Assembly: GCA_944324675.1 (NCBI GenBank)
Contig: CALUXE010000007.1
Coordinates: 1-64,000, forward strand
Direction of reading: 5' to 3'
Length of the DNA stretch: 64,000 bases
DNA from: an uncultured Elusimicrobiales bacterium
Lineage (GTDB): Bacteria; Elusimicrobiota; Elusimicrobia; Elusimicrobiales; Elusimicrobiaceae
The position numbers and the translations under genes are program-made. The notes under the pieces were generated by a model. That model ran no database searches, was not told where the DNA came from, and saw nothing but the letters and a program-made list of their open reading frames with translations. Position 1 is the first letter of the stretch, and each line of letters begins with the position of its first letter. Shown piece by piece: positions 22,884 to 62,580 of this stretch.

Positions 22884-22950
22884 AGGCCTAAGGGCCTATG
22901 ATAGGGTGGGGCCAAAGTCTCTTGTAGATAGGATAATGGTTTGTTAGGAT
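22884..22950 (+). promoter_or_regulatory. Shared-regulon promoter, strict copy (locus 2)
   Basis: The 38-bp operator has left half AGGCCTAAGGGCC and right half GGGGCCAAAGTCTC. It abuts -35 TTGTAG at 22922-22927, followed by 17 bp and -10 TAGGAT at 22945-22950. The operator interior is identical to the copy at 29165 over about 20 bases. The gene starts at 22986. Confidence 0.8.
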
Positions 22951-22985: not shown

Positions 22986-23735
22986 ATGTTGAAAAAGCTT
23001 TTAGTCGCGATAATTTCAATGAATATCTGCTTTTCGGGTTTGGCGTACGCGCAGTATCAGCCGCAGGGAGAGTTGACCGCCGAAGAAGTGGAAGAGTATA
23101 TGAAGGGTATAGAAAATAAAGGAAAAGAGATACCGAGCTGGGTTACCGTATTGCCCGTAGTCACCAGCGCAGGGGTTTTGCTTGCTTTAAGATATGCCAA
23201 TACTCTGAACAGGTCAGAAAAGATAGCCGCGGTCGAGTGGAAAGCGAGAATGGCAAAAGACGGAAAGTTTTTGAGAAAGGCCAAGATCAATATTAAGAAA
23301 TTATTGTTAAAAGCAAAGAAAAACCGCGGTAAATTGGCAATACTGACGATAGCTGCGATTTTAGTTTATTCCTATTTTGATGAGAATAATAGAGAAGAAA
23401 CCGCGATATTCAACAATCGCGCGCTCTTGGATAGGAAAATCAAAGAGCTGATGGAAAATGATATAGACAGCCTTGCTCTCTACGTGTATAGTTTGTCTGA
23501 CGAACAAAAAAAGGTGGCTTACAGCATTTTAGCCGACAACCCCGAAATTTTTGAAATTATAAAACAGCAGGTAGAGGAGGCTTTTTCGGAGGGAAATATA
23601 AAGGCCGCCGAAGAAGTTTATAACGCTTTGGAGTCGGAGCAAGAGGAAGAGCTGCTGCAGAAGAAGAACGAGTTGATTGACAGCTTGCGTCAAAGCGAAG
23701 AAAATTTCACGCCCGCTTGGAGTTTCGGCGAGTAG
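22986..23735 (+). CDS. Secreted/membrane protein of the paralogue family (member 2)
   Basis: Protein of 249 residues, function unknown. A Sec signal peptide begins MLKKLLVAIISMNICFSG and ends AYA before Gln23. A short acidic stretch, a first membrane segment (about 54-71, VTVLPVVTSAGVLLALRY), a basic K/R-rich linker and a second membrane segment (about 115-128, LAILTIAAILVYSYF) follow. The C-terminal helical domain has SLALYVYSLSDEQKKVAYSI, NPEIFEIIKQQVEEA and the tail DSLRQSEENFTPAWSFGE. With a cleaved signal and two membrane spans, the C-domain would lie in the periplasm. An ACGGAGGG site precedes the ATG. The terminator and spacer after it are copied at sister loci. Confidence 0.75.
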   Translation: MLKKLLVAIISMNICFSGLAYAQYQPQGELTAEEVEEYMKGIENKGKEIPSWVTVLPVVTSAGVLLALRYANTLNRSEKIAAVEWKARMAKDGKFLRKAKINIKKLLLKAKKNRGKLAILTIAAILVYSYFDENNREETAIFNNRALLDRKIKELMENDIDSLALYVYSLSDEQKKVAYSILADNPEIFEIIKQQVEEAFSEGNIKAAEEVYNALESEQEEELLQKKNELIDSLRQSEENFTPAWSFGE

Positions 23736-23835: not shown

Positions 23836-23900
23836 TGTGAAAGGGATTACTTCTATTTTTAGTTGGCTTTACTTTAAACGAACGCATGGGTCTAAGGGCC
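23836..23900 (+). repeat. Duplicated spacer, copy 1
   Basis: About 65 bp running into the operator closely match 29112-29178. Both contain a GAAAGGGATTACTT or GGAAGGGATTACTT start, then TTTAGTTG, TTTAAA and GCATGGGTCTAAGG. The match continues into the regulon operator, so promoter and spacer were copied as one unit. Confidence 0.7.
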
Positions 23901-23954
23901 TAATTGCGGAAGGGCCCTTTTTCTCTTGTAATCCGGGGGAAGAATAACTATAAT
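23888..23954 (+). promoter_or_regulatory. Shared-regulon promoter, strict copy (locus 3)
   Basis: A 38-bp operator with left half GGGTCTAAGGGCC and right half GGGCCCTTTTTCTC precedes -35 TTGTAA at 23926-23931. A 17-bp spacer and a consensus -10 TATAAT at 23949-23954 follow. The gene starts at 23982. Confidence 0.78.
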
Positions 23955-23981: not shown

Positions 23982-24980
23982 ATGTCAACAAAGAAATTAC
24001 TGGTATTTATATTTTTATTCGGAATCGGCAGCGCGGCTTATAGCGCCGATTTCTCCTCATTTAAGGATAGTGAGGAAGCAAAAGACTTGCTGCAAACTAA
24101 AATAGAAAACCTCTTAGAGGGGAAAACTTACAGATATAATTATGATCCGATAGTTTTTACAATGGTTACTACTTTCGAGAGAGATCTGTTCGTGGAGGAT
24201 TATGACGTAGACGGACGTCCCTTTAAGATAAAGATGAACTATTTGCAACAAGGCCTTTCCGATGAAGGAATGGGTATTTTTGAATTCTATTGCTATGCCA
24301 CGCTTATAAATCAGGATTATATCCTTACCCATACCAGATGCTTGTACGTGCCTACGCAGGAATATAAGAGTGGAAAGTTGGAGGGTGTATCTGGGGACTT
24401 TACCCCCATTTCCGTGGCGATAAGAAAGGACGGAAGGGAGTTGATTTTTAACCCCAGAAAGCTAAATACGGTTTTCTTCGACAATAAAAGCGGAATCGCT
24501 TTGATAAAAATAAGCGATTTGTGTTTGCAGGAAAAGCCCACTAAAGCCAGCAACGTTTGCGTAAGATTGTGGGAGTGGGCGGTAGGTTCCGAAGATGTCT
24601 TTTTCAAAATAGAGGACAAATACAATACGATGATTTTATCCAATATGGATCCTCAGGACGATGTGGAAGAATCTTTCCTAAGGAGATCGTTTTTCTCTCC
24701 TGTTTCCGGCAAAAAAACGATAAAATCCGTTAAGGACGGATATATAACCGTGGACGGAGAGGAAGATAAGAGCTATTTGGGGGAACCTTTATTCCACCGC
24801 GTTTCCTGGGATAAAAATATACTGGTCGGCATAAAGACTTCCGACTCGTTGTGCAGGAAAGCTACATATAGCGGCAAATACTCTTTATTTTCTTCGGAAT
24901 TTACCGATACGGTAAAAGAAAAAATAAAGAAAGGCGGCGTCAAGCTGACCAAAGACTTAAACGGCAATACTTCTTTATAA
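23982..24980 (+). CDS. Secreted chymotrypsin-fold protein with a degenerate catalytic triad
   Basis: Protein of 332 residues with a Sec signal peptide ending AYSA (about residue 21). The body has the layout of an S1 serine protease. CYATLINQDYILTHTRCL corresponds to the trypsin segment usually ending LTAAHC, but the histidine position is Arg. NKSGIALIKI corresponds to the NDIALLKL segment, with the catalytic Asp replaced. SYLGEPLFH corresponds to GDSGGPL, with the serine position Leu. So it is probably a non-catalytic protease-like protein; binding or scaffolding is inference. The ATG at 23982 is chosen because AAGGAG lies eight bases upstream; an earlier frame-start at 23904 would overlap the promoter. 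Its promoter belongs to the shared regulon. Confidence 0.62.
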   Translation: MSTKKLLVFIFLFGIGSAAYSADFSSFKDSEEAKDLLQTKIENLLEGKTYRYNYDPIVFTMVTTFERDLFVEDYDVDGRPFKIKMNYLQQGLSDEGMGIFEFYCYATLINQDYILTHTRCLYVPTQEYKSGKLEGVSGDFTPISVAIRKDGRELIFNPRKLNTVFFDNKSGIALIKISDLCLQEKPTKASNVCVRLWEWAVGSEDVFFKIEDKYNTMILSNMDPQDDVEESFLRRSFFSPVSGKKTIKSVKDGYITVDGEEDKSYLGEPLFHRVSWDKNILVGIKTSDSLCRKATYSGKYSLFSSEFTDTVKEKIKKGGVKLTKDLNGNTSL

Positions 24981-24995
24981 TTTGCAAACATATCC

Positions 24996-25030
24996 AAAAC
25001 CCCGGCGAAATAGGCCGGGGTTTTCTTTTG
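24996..25030 (+). terminator. Terminator of the protease-like gene
   Basis: AAAACCCCGGC/GCCGGGGTTTT stem with a seven-base loop and T-rich tail. Confidence 0.9.
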
Positions 25031-27878: not shown

Positions 27879-27945
27879 AGGACTAAAGACCCATTGTCGT
27901 TTGGGGCCAAAGTCTCTTGCAGGTAAACGGATAGTTTTTTAAAAT
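27879..27945 (+). promoter_or_regulatory. Shared-regulon promoter, strict copy (locus 4)
   Basis: A 38-bp operator with left half AGGACTAAAGACC and right half GGGGCCAAAGTCTC precedes -35 TTGCAG at 27917-27922. A 17-bp spacer and -10 TAAAAT at 27940-27945 follow. The operator begins only six bases after the secG terminator. Confidence 0.8.
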
Positions 27946-29111: not shown

Positions 29112-29178
29112 GTATGGAAGGGATTACTTTTATCTTTAGTTGCTTTCGGTTTAAATGAGTGCATGGGTCTAAGGCCCT
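29112..29178 (+). repeat. Duplicated spacer, copy 2
   Basis: Matches 23836-23900 with scattered substitutions and runs into the operator of the next regulon promoter. It marks a past segmental duplication or recombination between the paralogue loci. Confidence 0.7.
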
Positions 29179-29231
29179 ATGATAGGGTGGGGCCAAAGAC
29201 TCTTGCGGGTAAAAGGATACTTTCTTAGAAT
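29165..29231 (+). promoter_or_regulatory. Shared-regulon promoter, strict copy (locus 5)
   Basis: The most symmetrical operator: left half GGGTCTAAGGCCC and right half GGGGCCAAAGACTC, whose complement reads GAGTCTTTGGCCCC. The -35 is TTGCGG at 29203-29208, then 17 bp and -10 TAGAAT at 29226-29231. The gene starts at 29267. Confidence 0.82.
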
Positions 29232-30217: not shown

Positions 30218-31081
30218 ATGTTGAAGAGGGTAGTGTCATTATTTATTGTGCTAAATATAATTTGGGTATCGTTTTCGGCGGAGTTGTTTGCTCAAGAACG
30301 GACAATTAGCGAAGTTGACGTGGATATGTTATTTGCCCAGCTGCCTGACAATTTGCAAACTGAAAAAGACTCGCCTATTGGAATCACGGCCGCGGGTTTG
30401 CTTATAGGCGGATATTTGTACTTGGTAGCGGACGGCTATATATGTGAGAAGCAAATGCTCAAGAAAGAGGACGATATCATAAAATGGATGACACACAAAA
30501 TGTCCGATGAAGAATGGTATCATTTCCTCAACACCCATTTTTCAGATATTAGGAAGTATATAATCTATAGAAGCCAGCCGAAAGAAACAAGACTTGCTTT
30601 TGCTGATAAAATAATAGGGCTACGTTGCGCTAAAAGGGGAGCGGTCATCTTATTGCTTATAGCAGCAGTGATAGGGGTGGAATACCTTCTAACGTCTCAA
30701 GATAAAAACACATGCGAATTATTGCCCCTGTCGTCCGATAGGGTTGAAATAAAACGTATTTTGATAACTACCGCGCGCGAACATCCGGAAGCTTTCGCTT
30801 TGTCGGCTTATTTAATTCCTAATAGGAGACTTGTTTGTTCTATAATATCGGAAGACGAAGAATTATACGACTTGCTTAAATCCCAGGTGGAATTTGCGTT
30901 ATCTAAAGAGAACAAGGAATTCACCTATTATCTTTTGAAAGCCACGCAAGAAGGTGGGGAAAAGCGAAAAGAAGACTTGTTAAAACAAGATTTGAAGTTA
31001 GATGCTCAATGGTTTAAGAATAATTGGAAAAGCAAGTATGATCTATCCAATTCTCTAAGCGATTCACTATACTGGAAATGA
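30218..31081 (+). CDS. Secreted/membrane protein, divergent relative of the paralogue family (member 5)
   Basis: Protein of 287 residues, function unknown. The signal peptide (MLKRVVSLFIVLNIIWVSF to LFAQ, about 27) is followed by a first membrane segment (about 51-68, PIGITAAGLLIGGYLYLVA), a soluble stretch and a second span (about 140-154, AVILLLIAAVIGVEYLL). The C-terminal domain keeps the family layout with changed residues: AFALSAYLIPNRRLVCSI, DEELYDLLKSQVEFALSKEN. The tail differs from the FAPAWSFGE ending. Shared layout, adjacent position, -10/-35 core and terminator type support common ancestry. Overall sequence identity is low, so homology should be tested by profile search. Confidence 0.62.
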   Translation: MLKRVVSLFIVLNIIWVSFSAELFAQERTISEVDVDMLFAQLPDNLQTEKDSPIGITAAGLLIGGYLYLVADGYICEKQMLKKEDDIIKWMTHKMSDEEWYHFLNTHFSDIRKYIIYRSQPKETRLAFADKIIGLRCAKRGAVILLLIAAVIGVEYLLTSQDKNTCELLPLSSDRVEIKRILITTAREHPEAFALSAYLIPNRRLVCSIISEDEELYDLLKSQVEFALSKENKEFTYYLLKATQEGGEKRKEDLLKQDLKLDAQWFKNNWKSKYDLSNSLSDSLYWK

Positions 31082-36091: not shown

Positions 36092-36307
36092 TGTCTTTAG
36101 AAAAGGGCGGCTAGGCCGGGGGATTTTCATTTTTATTCTTCCCTCAGAGGAAAGCAGCCCTGGAAAATATTCATTATTTTTTGTTTTTTCTTTGCTGTTG
36201 GGCAAGCGCGCGGGGATTATATTCTGCGGCGCGGTTAAAAACAATAAGCGCTTGCCTGTTTTTTTGATAAAATTCTTTTGCGTTCAAGATCTCGCAGAGG
36301 GGATAAT

Positions 36308-36789
36308 ATGCTAAAAAACAAAGGTTTTACTCTTATAGAATTGCTGGTAGCGGTCTAATTATAGTAATACTGGCGGCCATAGCTTTTCCTAGATATAATT
36401 TAGCGGCGGAAAAAGCCCGTTTTGTGCAGGCCATAACTATCGTTAAAGCCATAGTTGAAGCGGAAAAGGTGTATTATTTGGCTACCGGTTCTTATACGAC
36501 GACTTTGGACGATTTGGATGTAACTTTTCCTCAAGAAAGTTTTAACGGGTTTGGGGAGTTGATCATTCATACCAGCCCAATATTACATGTCCAAATAGGG
36601 AGAAAAATAGAAAATAAATGGGTTTGGGTAGCCTCTTATTTAAGAGAAAACAAAACTATAGAAGTAGGCTGCACGACTTATATCTCATATCCATCTTTCT
36701 CTATGCCGGTTAAGCTTTGCGAGTCGCTTTCAAACAACGCTACTCCGCAGATTATTGAAAGCGGGTATTATTTTTGCCCTATAAGATAA
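36308..36789 (+). pseudogene. Type IV pilin-like prepilin with a frameshift
   Basis: The ATG at 36308 opens MLKNKGFTLIELLVAV, a class III prepilin signal with the cleavage site after Gly6 and the conserved Phe and Glu. The frame then hits TAA at about 36356. Shifting by one base restores LIIVILAAIAFPRYNLAAE and continues open to 36789. One lost base, for example a C in GTCCTA, explains the break. Restored length would be 160 residues, normal for a pilin or pseudopilin. Downstream it has paired cysteines typical of the D-region. It may be a true pseudogene, a phase-variable site or an assembly error. An AGAGGGG site precedes the ATG. Confidence 0.8.
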
Positions 36790-56490: not shown

Positions 56491-59400
56491 ATGAAAAAGA
56501 TTCTTTCTTCTCTAGGCGTAAAAATCGTTTCGATAGTTCTCTCTTTTACTATTCTTTTTGAATGTAATACGGCGGCTTTCGCGGGAATTGATTTCTCAAA
56601 AGGGGAGGTTGTTTTCTCTTATGACAGTTTTAACGCGGCCGATTTATCGGAATTTGACGCCAAATTGGAGGATTTGTTCTTAAAAGGGGAAGAAGGAAAC
56701 GTCTATGAAGCTTATCTTAACAGGGAAACGGCTTTAATTCTAAAAACTTTGCAAGACGATAAAAGACGGGCACGAATCGCCTCGTTAAAAAAAGAAGGGG
56801 AAGCGAAATACGGCGATATGGCGCCGATGTACGTAAAGAGGGTGGCTGCAAAGGATATAAAATCCTTGGAAGAAGATTTGATGTCGTATTTGGCGGCTTA
56901 TTTTCTAACGCCTAGGGTAATATCTTTAAAGGAATATGAGGAGTTTTACAACTCCATTATATTGGAAAACGCCAATGAATATGTGAAACACAATCCATCC
57001 CAAAGCTCCGTCCCCTATGCCAACCCTTTAGAAGCCGCGCTCGCTAAACTAAAGAAGTATTATCCTCTTAAAGAATGCTACGCCGCATACCAAAAAGAGG
57101 CTGAAGAAGAAATAGCCTGGCGCGCGGCAAATAAAACCAAAGTAGATGACGCCGCCTATAAAGTTCTGCGCGGTTATATCGAAGCCGCGGGGGCGGAGAA
57201 TTTATCCTCAACCGTTTTGCAGTACCTTATAAATCTTGAAATCGGCGGCAAAGCGCTTATAACCGCCGAGGAAAGGGAAAACATATATAATTACGCGGTG
57301 TCGCGTTTGGAAAAACAAAATCTGAAATCCTTGGAGCTTGACATAACCAGTGGAAAAACAGAGAAGCAAGTCGCCGCCCTCCTATTGGTCGATATTATAG
57401 ATACGATAATAATCGGATCTTATTTTTCCGCTGAAGACGACGGACGTTACTCCGAGGCCGTTAAACGCTTAGTATATGCGTCCGAGAAAGGGGTAGGCTT
57501 CGGGCAAATACTGAGCAACGGATTTTCCGCCCTGTTGGCTGTGGGGGATTATTTTTCCTTAAGAGAAATTCTCTCCCGCTACAGTTCAATGGATAAGCAA
57601 AAAGCTCGTTTCGGCGAATATTTAAGTTTGACTTTATATTCTTCCAAAGCCCGTACGGCCGGCGGCAGATTTTTGGGCAAGGCTTCTTCCCTGACGCAAT
57701 ACAGCGGCAATTATTTTTACGGCAATGCCTTTACCGACATGGCTCTTTTATTGGCCGAAGACGGCGGGAATGAGGCCTTGGCGATACTTAAGGAATACGG
57801 CGCGGATAAGGGTTTGGACGGTTCCATAAAACCGTTTTTGGCGGGCGCTTTGATAAGCGGAAAATCGGGTTTGTCTGAAGATGGCGCCAGGAATATGGCG
57901 GCTGATTTGGCCAATTTGACTTTGGGCGACATAACCGCTTTGCAGGAATACGATATAGACAGGGATTTATTGTCGAGATATCCCGACATAAAGGAAAAAC
58001 TTGATTCCGGCGCGGTGATAACGCGGGAGCAGCTTGAGGCAAGAAGGGCGCGCAACAAGCGTTTTGACTTTTTGGACAATGCCGCTTTCGCTGGCGATAT
58101 ATTGCTTCTTATATGGGGTGTGGCGGGGCTTGCCAAACTGGGGGGCAAGGCTTTGGCTTTAAGCGAGTCCACTTATACGGCGGTAAAGGCGGGGCACATA
58201 GCCGATAAAGCCAAGAAAATAGCTTATATCAGAGCCAATTACGCTAAGTTGGACAAATATATATCCGCGCGCAACAATATGCTGCTTTTTGGCGGAAGAA
58301 TAAAAAGATCGTTTTTGCGCTTTAAAGGGGTAAATGCCGTCTTGGGGGCAAATGATAGCCGCCAGGCGATAAAACTGGCGAATTATTTTAATAAAAAACA
58401 GCTGGCCTCTTTATATGAAGCCCGCAAGAAAGCGGTAATGGCGGTCAGAAACACCAGCAATCCCACTCAAAGGCAAGCGGCTAAAGCAAAATTGGCCACA
58501 GCCGAATATAAGGCAAAGCAGGCGCAGATAAGTTTGCTTAAAAAAGCCAGATTATACGGTTCATCGGTGGAAGCCAAAAACGCTTCTTATTTGCAGAAAG
58601 TCAAGGACTATAATTCGGCCGTAAGTCTGTATAATTCAAAAATGTCCAAGCTAGGCGCGCTCAAAGCCGATGGCGCTTCATTTACGGAAATGGAGCTTTT
58701 GGGCAAGGAAATAAAGACTATGGCTTCCGGCTTGGAAAGGGCGCCCTCTGCGCCTTTGTATACTGCCGGCGAAATGGAATACTTAAAGGCGGGCAAGCTG
58801 TTTTCTTCAAGATTGGGTAAATTGCAAATTGCCAAAGCCGATTATAAAGCCGCCGGGTGGTGGAATAGAAATATAGCCAGGCCGTGGCAGAAATTTAGCG
58901 CTTCTTCGGGCGACGGCAGTTTGGGGCTGTGGAAACTTGAAACCGGGAAAGGCGTAACCATATCCGAGGCTTTGGGTATAAAACGTCCGTATAATATAGA
59001 CTATACCAAAAGCTTTAAGCTTTTTGGCGGCGCTTCGGATAAAACTCCCGTAAACAAGTTTTACGCTTTTCTTACCGCGCACAAAATGAAGCCCGTGGCG
59101 GATTTCTTTAAGTTTGTTAACAACAGGGCGACGGTATTTGGCATGGCGCTTATGTTTAATTACAATATAGCGACGACCGTGCCGCAAGTCGGGGCTTTGA
59201 GCAAAAATTTAACTACCGCGACGGAATTGGTGCTGAATGCGGAGAAAGGCTTAAATTTAGGAAAGACTATTAGCTTGGGCGCCAGGGCGACTAGTATGCC
59301 TCTTATGCCATCCCTGCCGAAAATTCAACCGGTAAACCTAATAGATCCCAAGATATTTAAATCTTACGGCGGGGTTCCCCTGCCGGGCGGGAATTTTATA

Positions 59401-62400
59401 AACAATTTCAGCCTAAGAGGCTTGTTGGGCGGGTTTTTCAAGGCGGGTTACGCAGTGGCCGGCACGGCCGGAATGGGGCTTATGTTTACTAAAGATTTAT
59501 ACGCCCATTTTGACGGGAAATTGCTGAACACCGCCACAACCCCGGGGCAATATTTGGGAGGCAAGCTTTTTGACAATCTGAACGCTGGCGAGTTTAAGGT
59601 TTACGGAGAGAGTCATTTGGCCGGAGAATTGAACGGGCAAACAGCCGGTCTTGCCTCTTGGGGTTTCGCCTGGCCGAGCGGATATGGCGCTATAGCCCGC
59701 TCTTTCGGAGTGGAAAAAGCGAATAAATACGCATACGAGATACCCGCCGTGCCGCATTTGGCCTCCTCGTCATCTTCATATAGGACGCGTCCTTATTATG
59801 CCGCGGATCAGGAAATACGGGCGGCCGCCGCGCGGCAGAAAATAAGCGAAGAGAAAGCCCTTTCCGCCGCCTGGGACGAGGTGTCTGCCAATCTTGAGGG
59901 GGAGCCCTCGCAAGTAATGGCCGAGATGAAAGTTGGCGCAATAACCTTTAAAGTCTTGCGCGGGCACATCGCTACGAATAATGAGGGCGGCCCTGCGAAG
60001 ACCAAAATAATCAGGGGGTTCTTTTCCGACTTCGGGCTTGCCAAGATAATATATAAAAATTCCGAGAACAGAATAAAAGACTCCAGCAACCATAGCGATG
60101 AAAAATATATAAGCAAAGCGGATTTTATCCGTCTGTCTTCCATATTGCGGGAATACGCTCCGGTATCGCAGGTCGACGGTTTCCCCAAGAAGCTTACCTA
60201 CCGCATAAAAGTCGGCGACGGACAGAAATTGGTGGCGGTATTTAACGCTTTGGGGGATAGTGACGAATATTCCTTAGCGTCTATGTCCTACCGCAAAATA
60301 GACGATAACGACGTTTATTTTTCCGAGAAGTTAGAATCGGGGCTAAAAGAGTATCTTTCCTTAAATCAAGGTTTTAATTTCTCGTATGGCAACAATATAG
60401 TTTCTTTAGAAGAAGACGGGCTTGTGGCGGCGTCCGGCCAGCGCCCTTTTGATCCTTCCTTTGAGAATAGAAATTATACCGTAAGCGTTATAAACAACAA
60501 GGGCGACGAGCTCATTTTGCCGGTGGCGCTTTCCTTCAATGAAGATTTTGATACAAACGGATATACGAATATCGTTATAAACAATCATACCGCCGAGCTT
60601 AGGGAATTTGGCAAGAGACCCAGGACGATGTCCAACTTCTATTTGAGGCTTAAGACGGAAAATAAGAGCCTTGTAAAATTTGTAAAAGCTCTTAAAGACG
60701 CAAAAGAGAATATTACGATAAAATTATGGCAGCACGGAATAGAACCCTCCAAGCTGGTTACCGTTCCTCTTTATAATGCCCTCGGGCGGGAAGAACTGCC
60801 CATAAAAGTGATAACGGACGCCAATTTCTTCAAGCAAGGCGGGAAATTGGTTTTAATGCCTTCGGGCAAAATCGGGTTGCTTTCGGACAGATCGGCGATG
60901 CCGACGCCTTTGGGTCCTTCCGTGTTGATAAGAATCCCCAAAAATCAGTGCGACACTTTATTAAGAGTTCTGGCGCAGACCAAAGACGTGTTGCCCATAG
61001 AAGTCATGCGGAGCTACAATAAAGCCGATGTTATAGTCAATGAGGGGTTTTACATAAATCTCAGCTTGGGCAAGACTATGGGGCCGGTCTTGCCGGAATC
61101 TTTGGGCGTCAGCGAGGCTTTCGCGACCAACTTGATGTATGTGGTAAATTATTTGCCGGGTTTGCTTTCGCCGATGCTAAATCCTTTGGTAAAGAAATAC
61201 GGCGAAGTGGCGATGTTTAAAGTGTCTATTGTAATATCCATGCTGGCGGCGCTTATACCGTCGTTCTTCGGTTTTTACGGATATTCTTACGAAATGGAAC
61301 CGACCTCGCTTAGGACCATATCGCTTATCTTGTCGTTATTTGCTTTGGCTTTCTCTATAAACATAAGAGGTGTAGTGGGCAACTCCCTGATGAATATGAA
61401 CAGAGGGACGGCGCCGATATCAAAAGATAAGAAAAATGGAGAGCAAAACTTTGCCGAAGCGCTTAAAATTACGAGCGATATTTTAATGGAAAAATTCAAG
61501 AAGCTGTTTTCAAGCAGCAGCAACTTTTCCATGGGAGATATTTTATTCTACAACCGCAGTTTTATCAACAAAAATATCGGCACGATGACGTTTTTGGTGG
61601 CGCCTTCGGCGTTAAACTATGCGGGGCGGGCTCTTGGTATGGACTTTAATTTCGGTTGGGACGTATCTTTGCCTTTGTACGCGGCCTACAGCGCTTACGC
61701 GGGTTATAAGGTTCACCGTACGAATTTGAGGGACAAAAAAATAATAGATCACATCAAGAGTGAGGTATATCAAATGGCGCCCGCAACGGATGAAACGGAA
61801 CTCGCGGCGATAGCCATGGAAAGTGCTAATCAGAAACGCCAAAAGAGTTATTTGAAAGACATAAAAGAAGTGTTTGACATTATGTTCCATAAAGAGGGGG
61901 TTATGAGCATAGTGGTCGGAATGTCTTTGGCGACTGCGCACCAACTTTCCGTGTCCAGCGCGTTTTCCTCTGCTCTTTACCAGATAATACCCGACGGCGA
62001 TATGGCGACGTTAATGGTAATAGGGGTATTATACGGCGCTTTAATATTCGGCAGATTACTGGGATATATAACTACAACTAGGATGTCTACGGCTACATCA
62101 TATTTGGCCTATTCTTCGCTTTCCGGTTTGGGTACGGTAGGGATATTGATAGGCATAATGGCCGATATTCCCTCTCTGATAGTATCGAGCGGCGTGATAG
62201 CGAGCATCGGCATGGGTAACTTTTATTCACAAATGTTCGCTTATATCATAAGGAAACATCCCGAGCTGCAGAGCCAAATATCTCAAGCTTTAAACTTTAC
62301 GATGCCTATAGCGGTCGGGTTATCCATGCCGATAACGTATTTGAACGATTGGTTAAATGTTCCTTACGCGAGGGTGATGGCGTCGCTGGCTATGTTGGCG

Positions 62401-62580
62401 GCAAGTATGATAGTAACAAGTAAGATGCTGGATAATTCCACTTTATACAAATTTATCAAGCAGGAGTTTAAAGAGGCTTCGGACTATGTGGTGGGATTAT
62501 ACAAGGACAAGATAAAGGGGAATAAGGACAAAGGGGGAGAGCCTCCCAGCACGGATTTGAACAATCCGCTTCCCAACTAA
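56491..62580 (+). CDS. Giant secreted/membrane protein with a C-terminal MFS-like module
   Basis: Protein of 2029 residues. A signal peptide (about 1-31, ending AFA) is followed by a long helical region (about 35-520) and a hydrophobic segment (about 533-555, AGDILLLIWGVAGLAKLGG). An Ala/Lys-rich coiled coil (about 640-755) and a mixed region with several hydrophobic stretches (about 870-1040) come next. A beta-rich soluble part occupies about 1150-1500. The last 500 residues (about 1530-1990) look like a major-facilitator fold of roughly 10-12 helices with two polar inserts, including GVLYGALIFGRLLGYITTTR. Fusion of an exported region this size to a transporter-like module is unusual. The role is unknown; surface structure, secretion or large-substrate uptake are guesses. 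No clear ribosome-binding site precedes the ATG. Confidence 0.72.
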   Translation: MKKILSSLGVKIVSIVLSFTILFECNTAAFAGIDFSKGEVVFSYDSFNAADLSEFDAKLEDLFLKGEEGNVYEAYLNRETALILKTLQDDKRRARIASLKKEGEAKYGDMAPMYVKRVAAKDIKSLEEDLMSYLAAYFLTPRVISLKEYEEFYNSIILENANEYVKHNPSQSSVPYANPLEAALAKLKKYYPLKECYAAYQKEAEEEIAWRAANKTKVDDAAYKVLRGYIEAAGAENLSSTVLQYLINLEIGGKALITAEERENIYNYAVSRLEKQNLKSLELDITSGKTEKQVAALLLVDIIDTIIIGSYFSAEDDGRYSEAVKRLVYASEKGVGFGQILSNGFSALLAVGDYFSLREILSRYSSMDKQKARFGEYLSLTLYSSKARTAGGRFLGKASSLTQYSGNYFYGNAFTDMALLLAEDGGNEALAILKEYGADKGLDGSIKPFLAGALISGKSGLSEDGARNMAADLANLTLGDITALQEYDIDRDLLSRYPDIKEKLDSGAVITREQLEARRARNKRFDFLDNAAFAGDILLLIWGVAGLAKLGGKALALSESTYTAVKAGHIADKAKKIAYIRANYAKLDKYISARNNMLLFGGRIKRSFLRFKGVNAVLGANDSRQAIKLANYFNKKQLASLYEARKKAVMAVRNTSNPTQRQAAKAKLATAEYKAKQAQISLLKKARLYGSSVEAKNASYLQKVKDYNSAVSLYNSKMSKLGALKADGASFTEMELLGKEIKTMASGLERAPSAPLYTAGEMEYLKAGKLFSSRLGKLQIAKADYKAAGWWNRNIARPWQKFSASSGDGSLGLWKLETGKGVTISEALGIKRPYNIDYTKSFKLFGGASDKTPVNKFYAFLTAHKMKPVADFFKFVNNRATVFGMALMFNYNIATTVPQVGALSKNLTTATELVLNAEKGLNLGKTISLGARATSMPLMPSLPKIQPVNLIDPKIFKSYGGVPLPGGNFINNFSLRGLLGGFFKAGYAVAGTAGMGLMFTKDLYAHFDGKLLNTATTPGQYLGGKLFDNLNAGEFKVYGESHLAGELNGQTAGLASWGFAWPSGYGAIARSFGVEKANKYAYEIPAVPHLASSSSSYRTRPYYAADQEIRAAAARQKISEEKALSAAWDEVSANLEGEPSQVMAEMKVGAITFKVLRGHIATNNEGGPAKTKIIRGFFSDFGLAKIIYKNSENRIKDSSNHSDEKYISKADFIRLSSILREYAPVSQVDGFPKKLTYRIKVGDGQKLVAVFNALGDSDEYSLASMSYRKIDDNDVYFSEKLESGLKEYLSLNQGFNFSYGNNIVSLEEDGLVAASGQRPFDPSFENRNYTVSVINNKGDELILPVALSFNEDFDTNGYTNIVINNHTAELREFGKRPRTMSNFYLRLKTENKSLVKFVKALKDAKENITIKLWQHGIEPSKLVTVPLYNALGREELPIKVITDANFFKQGGKLVLMPSGKIGLLSDRSAMPTPLGPSVLIRIPKNQCDTLLRVLAQTKDVLPIEVMRSYNKADVIVNEGFYINLSLGKTMGPVLPESLGVSEAFATNLMYVVNYLPGLLSPMLNPLVKKYGEVAMFKVSIVISMLAALIPSFFGFYGYSYEMEPTSLRTISLILSLFALAFSINIRGVVGNSLMNMNRGTAPISKDKKNGEQNFAEALKITSDILMEKFKKLFSSSSNFSMGDILFYNRSFINKNIGTMTFLVAPSALNYAGRALGMDFNFGWDVSLPLYAAYSAYAGYKVHRTNLRDKKIIDHIKSEVYQMAPATDETELAAIAMESANQKRQKSYLKDIKEVFDIMFHKEGVMSIVVGMSLATAHQLSVSSAFSSALYQIIPDGDMATLMVIGVLYGALIFGRLLGYITTTRMSTATSYLAYSSLSGLGTVGILIGIMADIPSLIVSSGVIASIGMGNFYSQMFAYIIRKHPELQSQISQALNFTMPIAVGLSMPITYLNDWLNVPYARVMASLAMLAASMIVTSKMLDNSTLYKFIKQEFKEASDYVVGLYKDKIKGNKDKGGEPPSTDLNNPLPN

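Follow-up and report, generated by a model that had tools for sequence, protein, structure and literature searches.

Gene, product and relatives

What does a secreted, trypsin-like protein do when its catalytic positions are occupied by other residues? The question is raised by one gene in a stretch of 64,000 nucleotides (contig CALUXE010000007.1, positions 1 to 64,000; hereafter the window) from the 1.4 Mb, 17-contig genome of an uncultured Elusimicrobiales bacterium, possibly a gut inhabitant. We refer to the gene and its product as the pseudo-trypsin, and its basic features are as follows.

23982..24980, + strand: pseudo-trypsin gene, 332 aa, intact open reading frame from ATG (23982) to TAA (24980)
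23982..24047, + strand: N-terminal signal peptide (MSTKKLLVFIFLFGIGSAAYSA-DF), judged by eye, no predictor
24996..25024, + strand: terminator-like hairpin 3' of the gene

Upstream lie a fructose-bisphosphate aldolase-like gene and a secreted-type paralogue, and the downstream neighbour is a GAPDH-like gene (names from sequence). Elsewhere in the window, a pilin-like gene at about 36300-36789 looks broken because its N-terminal GFTLIELL part and its body lie in different frames.

Protein search across the 18 genomes (species) of the genus recovered five orthologous sequences in four of them: the window protein, one each in genomes G015 and G017, and two copies in G006. The window protein and its G015 orthologue share 60% identity, and both G015 and G017 preserve the gene order aldolase, pseudo-trypsin, GAPDH. 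All five sequences have a hydrophobic leader, and the orthologues share a conserved C-terminal tail, LTKDLxxxT. A profile built from the five found a diverged pair in a fifth species, G009 (E = 4.4e-4 and 0.07; 21-22% identity to the window protein); the five and this pair are referred to below as the seven. The same type of protein search in the remaining 72 genomes of the family gave three weak matches (E = 0.015-0.19), all in other genera. L006 and L007 were rejected as relatives for want of a plausible long gene, and L008, with two stops inside, was not accepted. Among viral contigs there were 18 pattern matches and no relative.

Fold assignment from sequence profiles

At E ≤ 10, Pfam recognised none of the five orthologous sequences, and none exceeds the 20.6 bits required for PF00089 (Trypsin); the two G009 relatives scored 26.1 bits (above this cut-off) and 12.4 bits (below it) against the same family. 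Two sequence searches of the PDB gave nothing significant (best E = 1.3 and 0.26); their four sub-threshold matches, one from the first and three from the second, bear the names of trypsin, elastase and similar zymogens. Profile-profile comparison was performed with hhalign against motif-picked sets of trypsin-like sequences from the genus (22, 7 and all 29 sequences), with 40 column shuffles per set (120 in total) and reversed sets as decoys. The profile of the five mature sequences scored 30.6, 28.9 and 30.0 against the sets of 22, 7 and 29, respectively, compared with shuffle maxima of 24.4, 18.3 and 22.8 and reversed scores of 15.4, 17.6 and 15.9. Because hhalign's own probabilities for this profile are low (10-16%), the decoys carry the argument. 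Adding the G009 pair to the profile raised the three scores to 37.3, 36.4 and 44.7; here the highest shuffles reached 22.7, 20.2 and 19.5, and the reversed sets gave 12.2, 21.0 and 16.6. By this comparison of sequences, the likeness of the pseudo-trypsins to trypsins exceeds chance.

When the seven-sequence profile was searched over 149 genomes of the order, 24 further matches were obtained at E ≤ 0.05. A locus was available for 23, and by our own motif count 15 of these encode intact [TS]AxHC, Asp and GxSG; the others comprise one cut trypsin-like frame that lacks the Ser part, one degenerate pair, and six matches that are other things or unclear, four of which match at the signal-peptide end only. 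The degenerate pair (L102 / L125, G085:C1, about 102700) consists of trypsin-like proteins from another genus that read LTRKSC and LTRSSC at the His57 site. A tree of 49 sequences groups the seven together (support 99/97) and, separately, the two G085 proteins (99/98). The pair possibly lost the triad independently; the same tree fits one origin of the degenerate groups or two, and the G085 branches are flagged as long.

PF00089 matches at E ≤ 0.01 occur in 90 of 90 genomes of the family and also in 12 of 14 control genomes, so their presence in all 90 alone says little. Tandem pairs occur in several genomes of the genus; their secreted-type products are about 330 aa long and have intact motifs.

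Fold assignment from predicted structures

A first model, led by the window protein with an alignment of 5 rows, reached a pLDDT of 50. Foldseek found nothing for it below E = 0.015 and ranked unrelated proteins first; a second look with VIA gave mostly chymotrypsin-like proteases over residues ~50-202 only, at Z 5.3-8.0, values that the tool warns may reflect merely a common arrangement. Because this result was weak, a second model was computed for the mature region with the G015 orthologue first. This AlphaFold2 model has a pLDDT of 64.4 and a pTM of 0.67, with blocks around the Ser195 loop at a mean pLDDT below 60. Foldseek against the PDB gave 81 matches at E ≤ 0.001, and the best 50 of these are all, by title, chymotrypsin-like proteases, their homologues or complexes containing one (TM-scores 0.17-0.51). 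With VIA-align, Z reached 11.9, and 988 of 998 chains had Z ≥ 8; the best 50 matches (Z 10.3-11.9 over 164-194 residues) are all chymotrypsin-like by title. The VIA-align matches include 3h7o, an inactivated protease paralogue of the scabies mite, and Umb1 (Z 10.4). The model thus matches chymotrypsin-like structures over nearly its full length.

The trypsin-like fold proposed in the preliminary description is therefore supported by the profiles, the tree and the model of the G015 orthologue, which together indicate that the family has the chymotrypsin/trypsin (PA-clan) double beta-barrel fold. Structure prediction, which that description had proposed as a check, upheld it in part: the G015 model is predicted to be chymotrypsin-like, whereas the window-led model was poor and matched in its N-terminal half only.

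Residues at the catalytic positions

The three S1 landmark segments said to be alignable (ILTHTRCL, SGIALIKI and YLGEPLFH) are all present in the window protein and align with 40 trypsin-like sequences that are intact by motif only. The alignment comprises 49 sequences, namely these 40 (29 motif-picked from the genus and 11 chosen from the order-wide profile matches) and 9 degenerate ones. It places other residues at all three triad positions of the window protein, as had been described.

24336..24338, + strand: codon of R119, His57 position (LTHTRC vs LTAAHC in the alignment)
24492..24494, + strand: codon of G171, Asp102 position (SGIALIKI vs YDIALIxF in the alignment)
24777..24779, + strand: codon of L266, Ser195 position (SYLGEPLF vs GxSGxxxx in the alignment)

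The Cys42-Cys58 pair is retained. The oxyanion-hole Gly193 position is S264 in the window protein and is non-glycine in all seven: the five orthologous proteins carry S or T there, and the G009 copies I or F. E268, at the Gly197 position, is invariant in the seven.

A different hhalign register, which set FNPRKL against the residues after Asp102, was rejected because the 49-sequence alignment sets SG-IALIKI against YD-IALIxF and because the resulting spacing from the His site, 52 residues, is near the 51 of an intact relative (hand count). The Asp102-site register is also similar to what we take to be the HtrA pattern, DGR...DxxxDIALLKI.

In the order window protein, G015, G017 and the two G006 copies, the residues are R, K, K, H and N at the His57 site and G, A, A, A and A at the Asp102 site. 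The preliminary description had suggested looking for the same substitutions in orthologues: loss of the whole triad recurs in that four of the five orthologous sequences lack it, and it does not extend to one G006 copy, which keeps His. Across the seven, the Ser195 site reads L, F, F, L, V, P and P, so that Ser195 is lost in all; Asp102 is lost in five and retained in the G009 pair; and His57 is lost in five and retained in one G006 and one G009 copy. This distribution among relatives suggests that the loss of Ser195 came first.

A protein altered in this way could conceivably still be a hydrolase that uses displaced or different catalytic residues, for example around H117, D167 and S170 or E268. 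All seven keep E268 and also H117, which lies two residues ahead of the His57 site; the five orthologous proteins all have D167 and S170. The latter two vary, however, once the G009 pair is included, the S or T at 264 becomes I or F in that pair, the Gly193 position is never glycine, and no Ser, Thr or Cys at or beside the Ser195 site is invariant in the seven. We consider continued catalysis quite improbable.

Upstream element and co-regulated genes

The description had further placed the gene in a regulon with a shared promoter, and this was borne out: a pattern scan located a 40-bp element that has four exact sites in the window and none in the control.

23889..23928, + strand: shared 40-bp element, GGNCNWARGNCCYA-N9-GGRNCY-N5-CTCTTG, pattern scan
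23926..23954, + strand: promoter-like TTGTAA-17-TATAAT overlapping the element end, 10/12 matches, pattern only (5 sites of this type found in the region; shuffles mean 4.1)

By eye, the element consists of three half-sites (GGNCYWA-like) at a fixed distance from the -35-like CTCTTG. At gathering thresholds, Rfam identified three tRNAs only in the window and no known RNA at the upstream element. The element lies upstream of all seven pseudo-trypsin genes, with 0 mismatches in the five orthologous ones, where its distance to the start codon is nearly equal, and with 2 and 3 mismatches in the G009 pair. As the pattern was written from the five orthologue sites and three neighbouring sites in the window, the zero mismatches at these eight are partly by construction, and the independent test of the pattern is the remaining sites, including those of the G009 pair. 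The genome of the window contains 5 sites at 0 mismatches (window 22885-22924, 23889-23928, 27880-27919 and 29166-29205, and G000:C5:84705-84744) and 13 at ≤3, with 0 in the control. In 2000 random 300-base pieces of the window, 15 held a site with 0 mismatches, presumably the known ones, and all others had at least 4.

A genus-wide scan allowing ≤1 mismatch gave 45 sites, of which 37 lay outside the pattern-building set, spread over 11 of 18 genomes (control 0). The 11 are exactly those passing the completeness filter; the seven that fail it have no such site. We inspected 33 loci downstream of sites, two of which repeated a neighbour's site; the downstream genes of the resulting 31 of 45 sites all encode a hydrophobic, signal-like leader as judged by eye (31/31).

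In the window the element also precedes the secreted-type paralogues at 22986, 27980 and 29267, which have near-identical leaders and C-terminal ends and middles of different length; the genes at 30218 and 12412 are distant members of this group, and none of the five proteins matches a Pfam family below E 0.02. A special partnership between the pseudo-trypsin and this paralogue family, which the description had thought probable, was unsupported. Matches covering nearly all of the 27980 protein occur in G000, G015, G017 and G001, so it is present in G001, where the pseudo-trypsin is absent, and it has no match at E ≤ 0.001 in G006, where there are two pseudo-trypsins; the paralogue is thus not an obligate partner. 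The regulon itself extends beyond the 22986/27980/29267 family and includes large signal-leader proteins in several species.

Two very large secreted-type proteins, encoded at window 56491-62580 and G000:C1:58500-64500 (L030), have N-terminal parts that appear related by eye. The latter contains two embedded trypsin-like domains with intact-looking motifs. The former gave no match to a profile of these domains and shows only a faint MFS-like resemblance towards its C-terminus (E = 0.07).

One possibility is that the pseudo-trypsin belongs as a subunit to a secreted particle, or to the large modular secreted proteins of the regulon, and holds an extended peptide in its old cleft as UmbA does with UmbB. 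Six proteins of Streptomyces coelicolor, UmbA1-UmbA6, have considerable homology to trypsin and none has a complete triad; no activity was detected for the purified trypsin-like domains of two of them, and UmbA proteins bind the extended N-terminus of UmbB without cleaving it (PMC11062931). The element is common to the pseudo-trypsins and the large signal-leader proteins, and Umb1 is among the fold matches. Against this, Pfam names no lectin or other domain in the pseudo-trypsin, and the neighbouring paralogue family does not strictly co-occur with it. We regard such a role as possible, if somewhat doubtful when taken singly.

Alternatively, the protein may stand to an active, secreted trypsin-like protease of its own cell as MamO stands to MamE, acting as an inactive partner (activator, inhibitor or decoy). 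In magnetotactic bacteria, active and inactive proteases have become paired repeatedly in evolution (PMC4794232), and all four genomes with orthologues have PF00089 matches, but so do 12-13 of the 14 control genomes. The PF00089 matches (E ≤ 1) of these four genomes are all remote from the pseudo-trypsin gene, on other contigs or, in G017, about 450 kb away. Nor is the element found at ≤3 mismatches upstream of any of 28 intact trypsin-like genes (those of the 29 with enough upstream sequence). Three of the 28 have a degenerate element, with 4-5 mismatches at the right distance, so the element is not exclusive to the dead members; the genes of the G085 pair have 8 and 10 mismatches to it. An inactive partner likewise remains a tentative reading, to be held with some doubt.

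Selection on the gene

Substitution rates were obtained with our own Nei-Gojobori-type count. The closest pair, G015/G017, gave dN 0.128 and dS 0.955 (dN/dS ~0.13), the window gene against G015 gave 0.321 and 1.093 (~0.29), and the two G006 copies gave 0.365 and 0.982 (~0.37); for the other seven pairs dS was ≥1.7 or not computable. The gene is maintained under purifying selection. A decaying gene on its way to loss could account for triad sites that differ among orthologues and for presence in only 4 of 18 species, but the frame is open in all five sequences, dN/dS is low in each of the pairs with dS near 1, and the promoter element is without mismatch in all five. We find decay very hard to credit.

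Proposed function

The pseudo-trypsin is probably a secreted, dead S1-fold pseudoprotease that derives from the trypsin-like secreted proteins of its lineage and serves as a binding module. Its predicted fold, the selection on its gene and the precedents lead us to infer a role in binding. After export, the former substrate cleft or a conserved surface would hold a peptide or protein. Within the co-regulated secretome, the folded domain would be a subunit for binding or assembly, or else would act alongside active proteases as their cofactor or decoy. We favour a binding/assembly subunit or a protease cofactor, and do not rank these two.

A more specific and rather speculative version, which we think unlikely, is that the pseudo-trypsins are a dedicated, co-regulated subunit of an undescribed secreted assembly of Elusimicrobiales, formed with the large modular proteins that share the element, in which the dead cleft would hold a peptide of another subunit. 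If true, such an assembly would be an independent parallel to the Streptomyces umbrella particles. The sharply defined promoter element ties the pseudo-trypsin to a set of secreted-type proteins, which makes the search for a partner concrete, and it is the part of this work that might lead further.

Comparison with known systems

With peptidase family S1 (PF00089), the pseudo-trypsins share the fold in the model, the order of the landmarks, Cys42-Cys58 and the C-terminal helix. They differ in the absence of His57 (4/5), Asp102, Ser195 and Gly193, in the lack of a Pfam match, and in an extra N-terminal stretch and the conserved tail. The window protein accordingly has what an active S1 peptidase has in fold, as judged from the G015 model, and neither its triad nor its oxyanion-hole glycine. 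A homologous fold, as predicted, together with lost catalytic residues and a maintained gene marks the family as probable S1-fold pseudoproteases.

None of the papers searched links Elusimicrobi- with pseudoprotease, and the papers on Elusimicrobium and trypsin, judged by title and the start of the abstract, include none on a pseudo-trypsin. Bacterial trypsin-fold pseudoproteases with a known role seem few, and MamO and UmbA are examples. UmbA shares with the present family a secreted bacterial trypsin fold with an incomplete triad, and the use in binding that we suggest is UmbA's (PMC11062931). UmbA proteins differ in that they carry lectin domains and bind UmbB, whereas Pfam names no lectin here; the hallmark of that family is a trypsin-like domain fused to a lectin domain and encoded with UmbB and UmbC. 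MamO is likewise a bacterial trypsin-like pseudoprotease with a degenerate triad and a non-glycine residue at 193 (PMC4794232), but it belongs to the magnetosome and has a di-histidine metal site on its surface, and its family is the MamO clade of the trypsin-2 tree. The scabies mite SMIPP-S proteins share the S1 fold, 3h7o being called inactivated in its PDB title; they come from a mite, and the likeness here is by fold only.

Trypsin-fold pseudoproteases are thus a known kind, of which the Elusimicrobiales family is a new and diverged representative that Pfam misses. It adds a further such family from a little-studied lineage, one in which intermediate relatives keep Asp102 or His57 while Ser195 is lost throughout.
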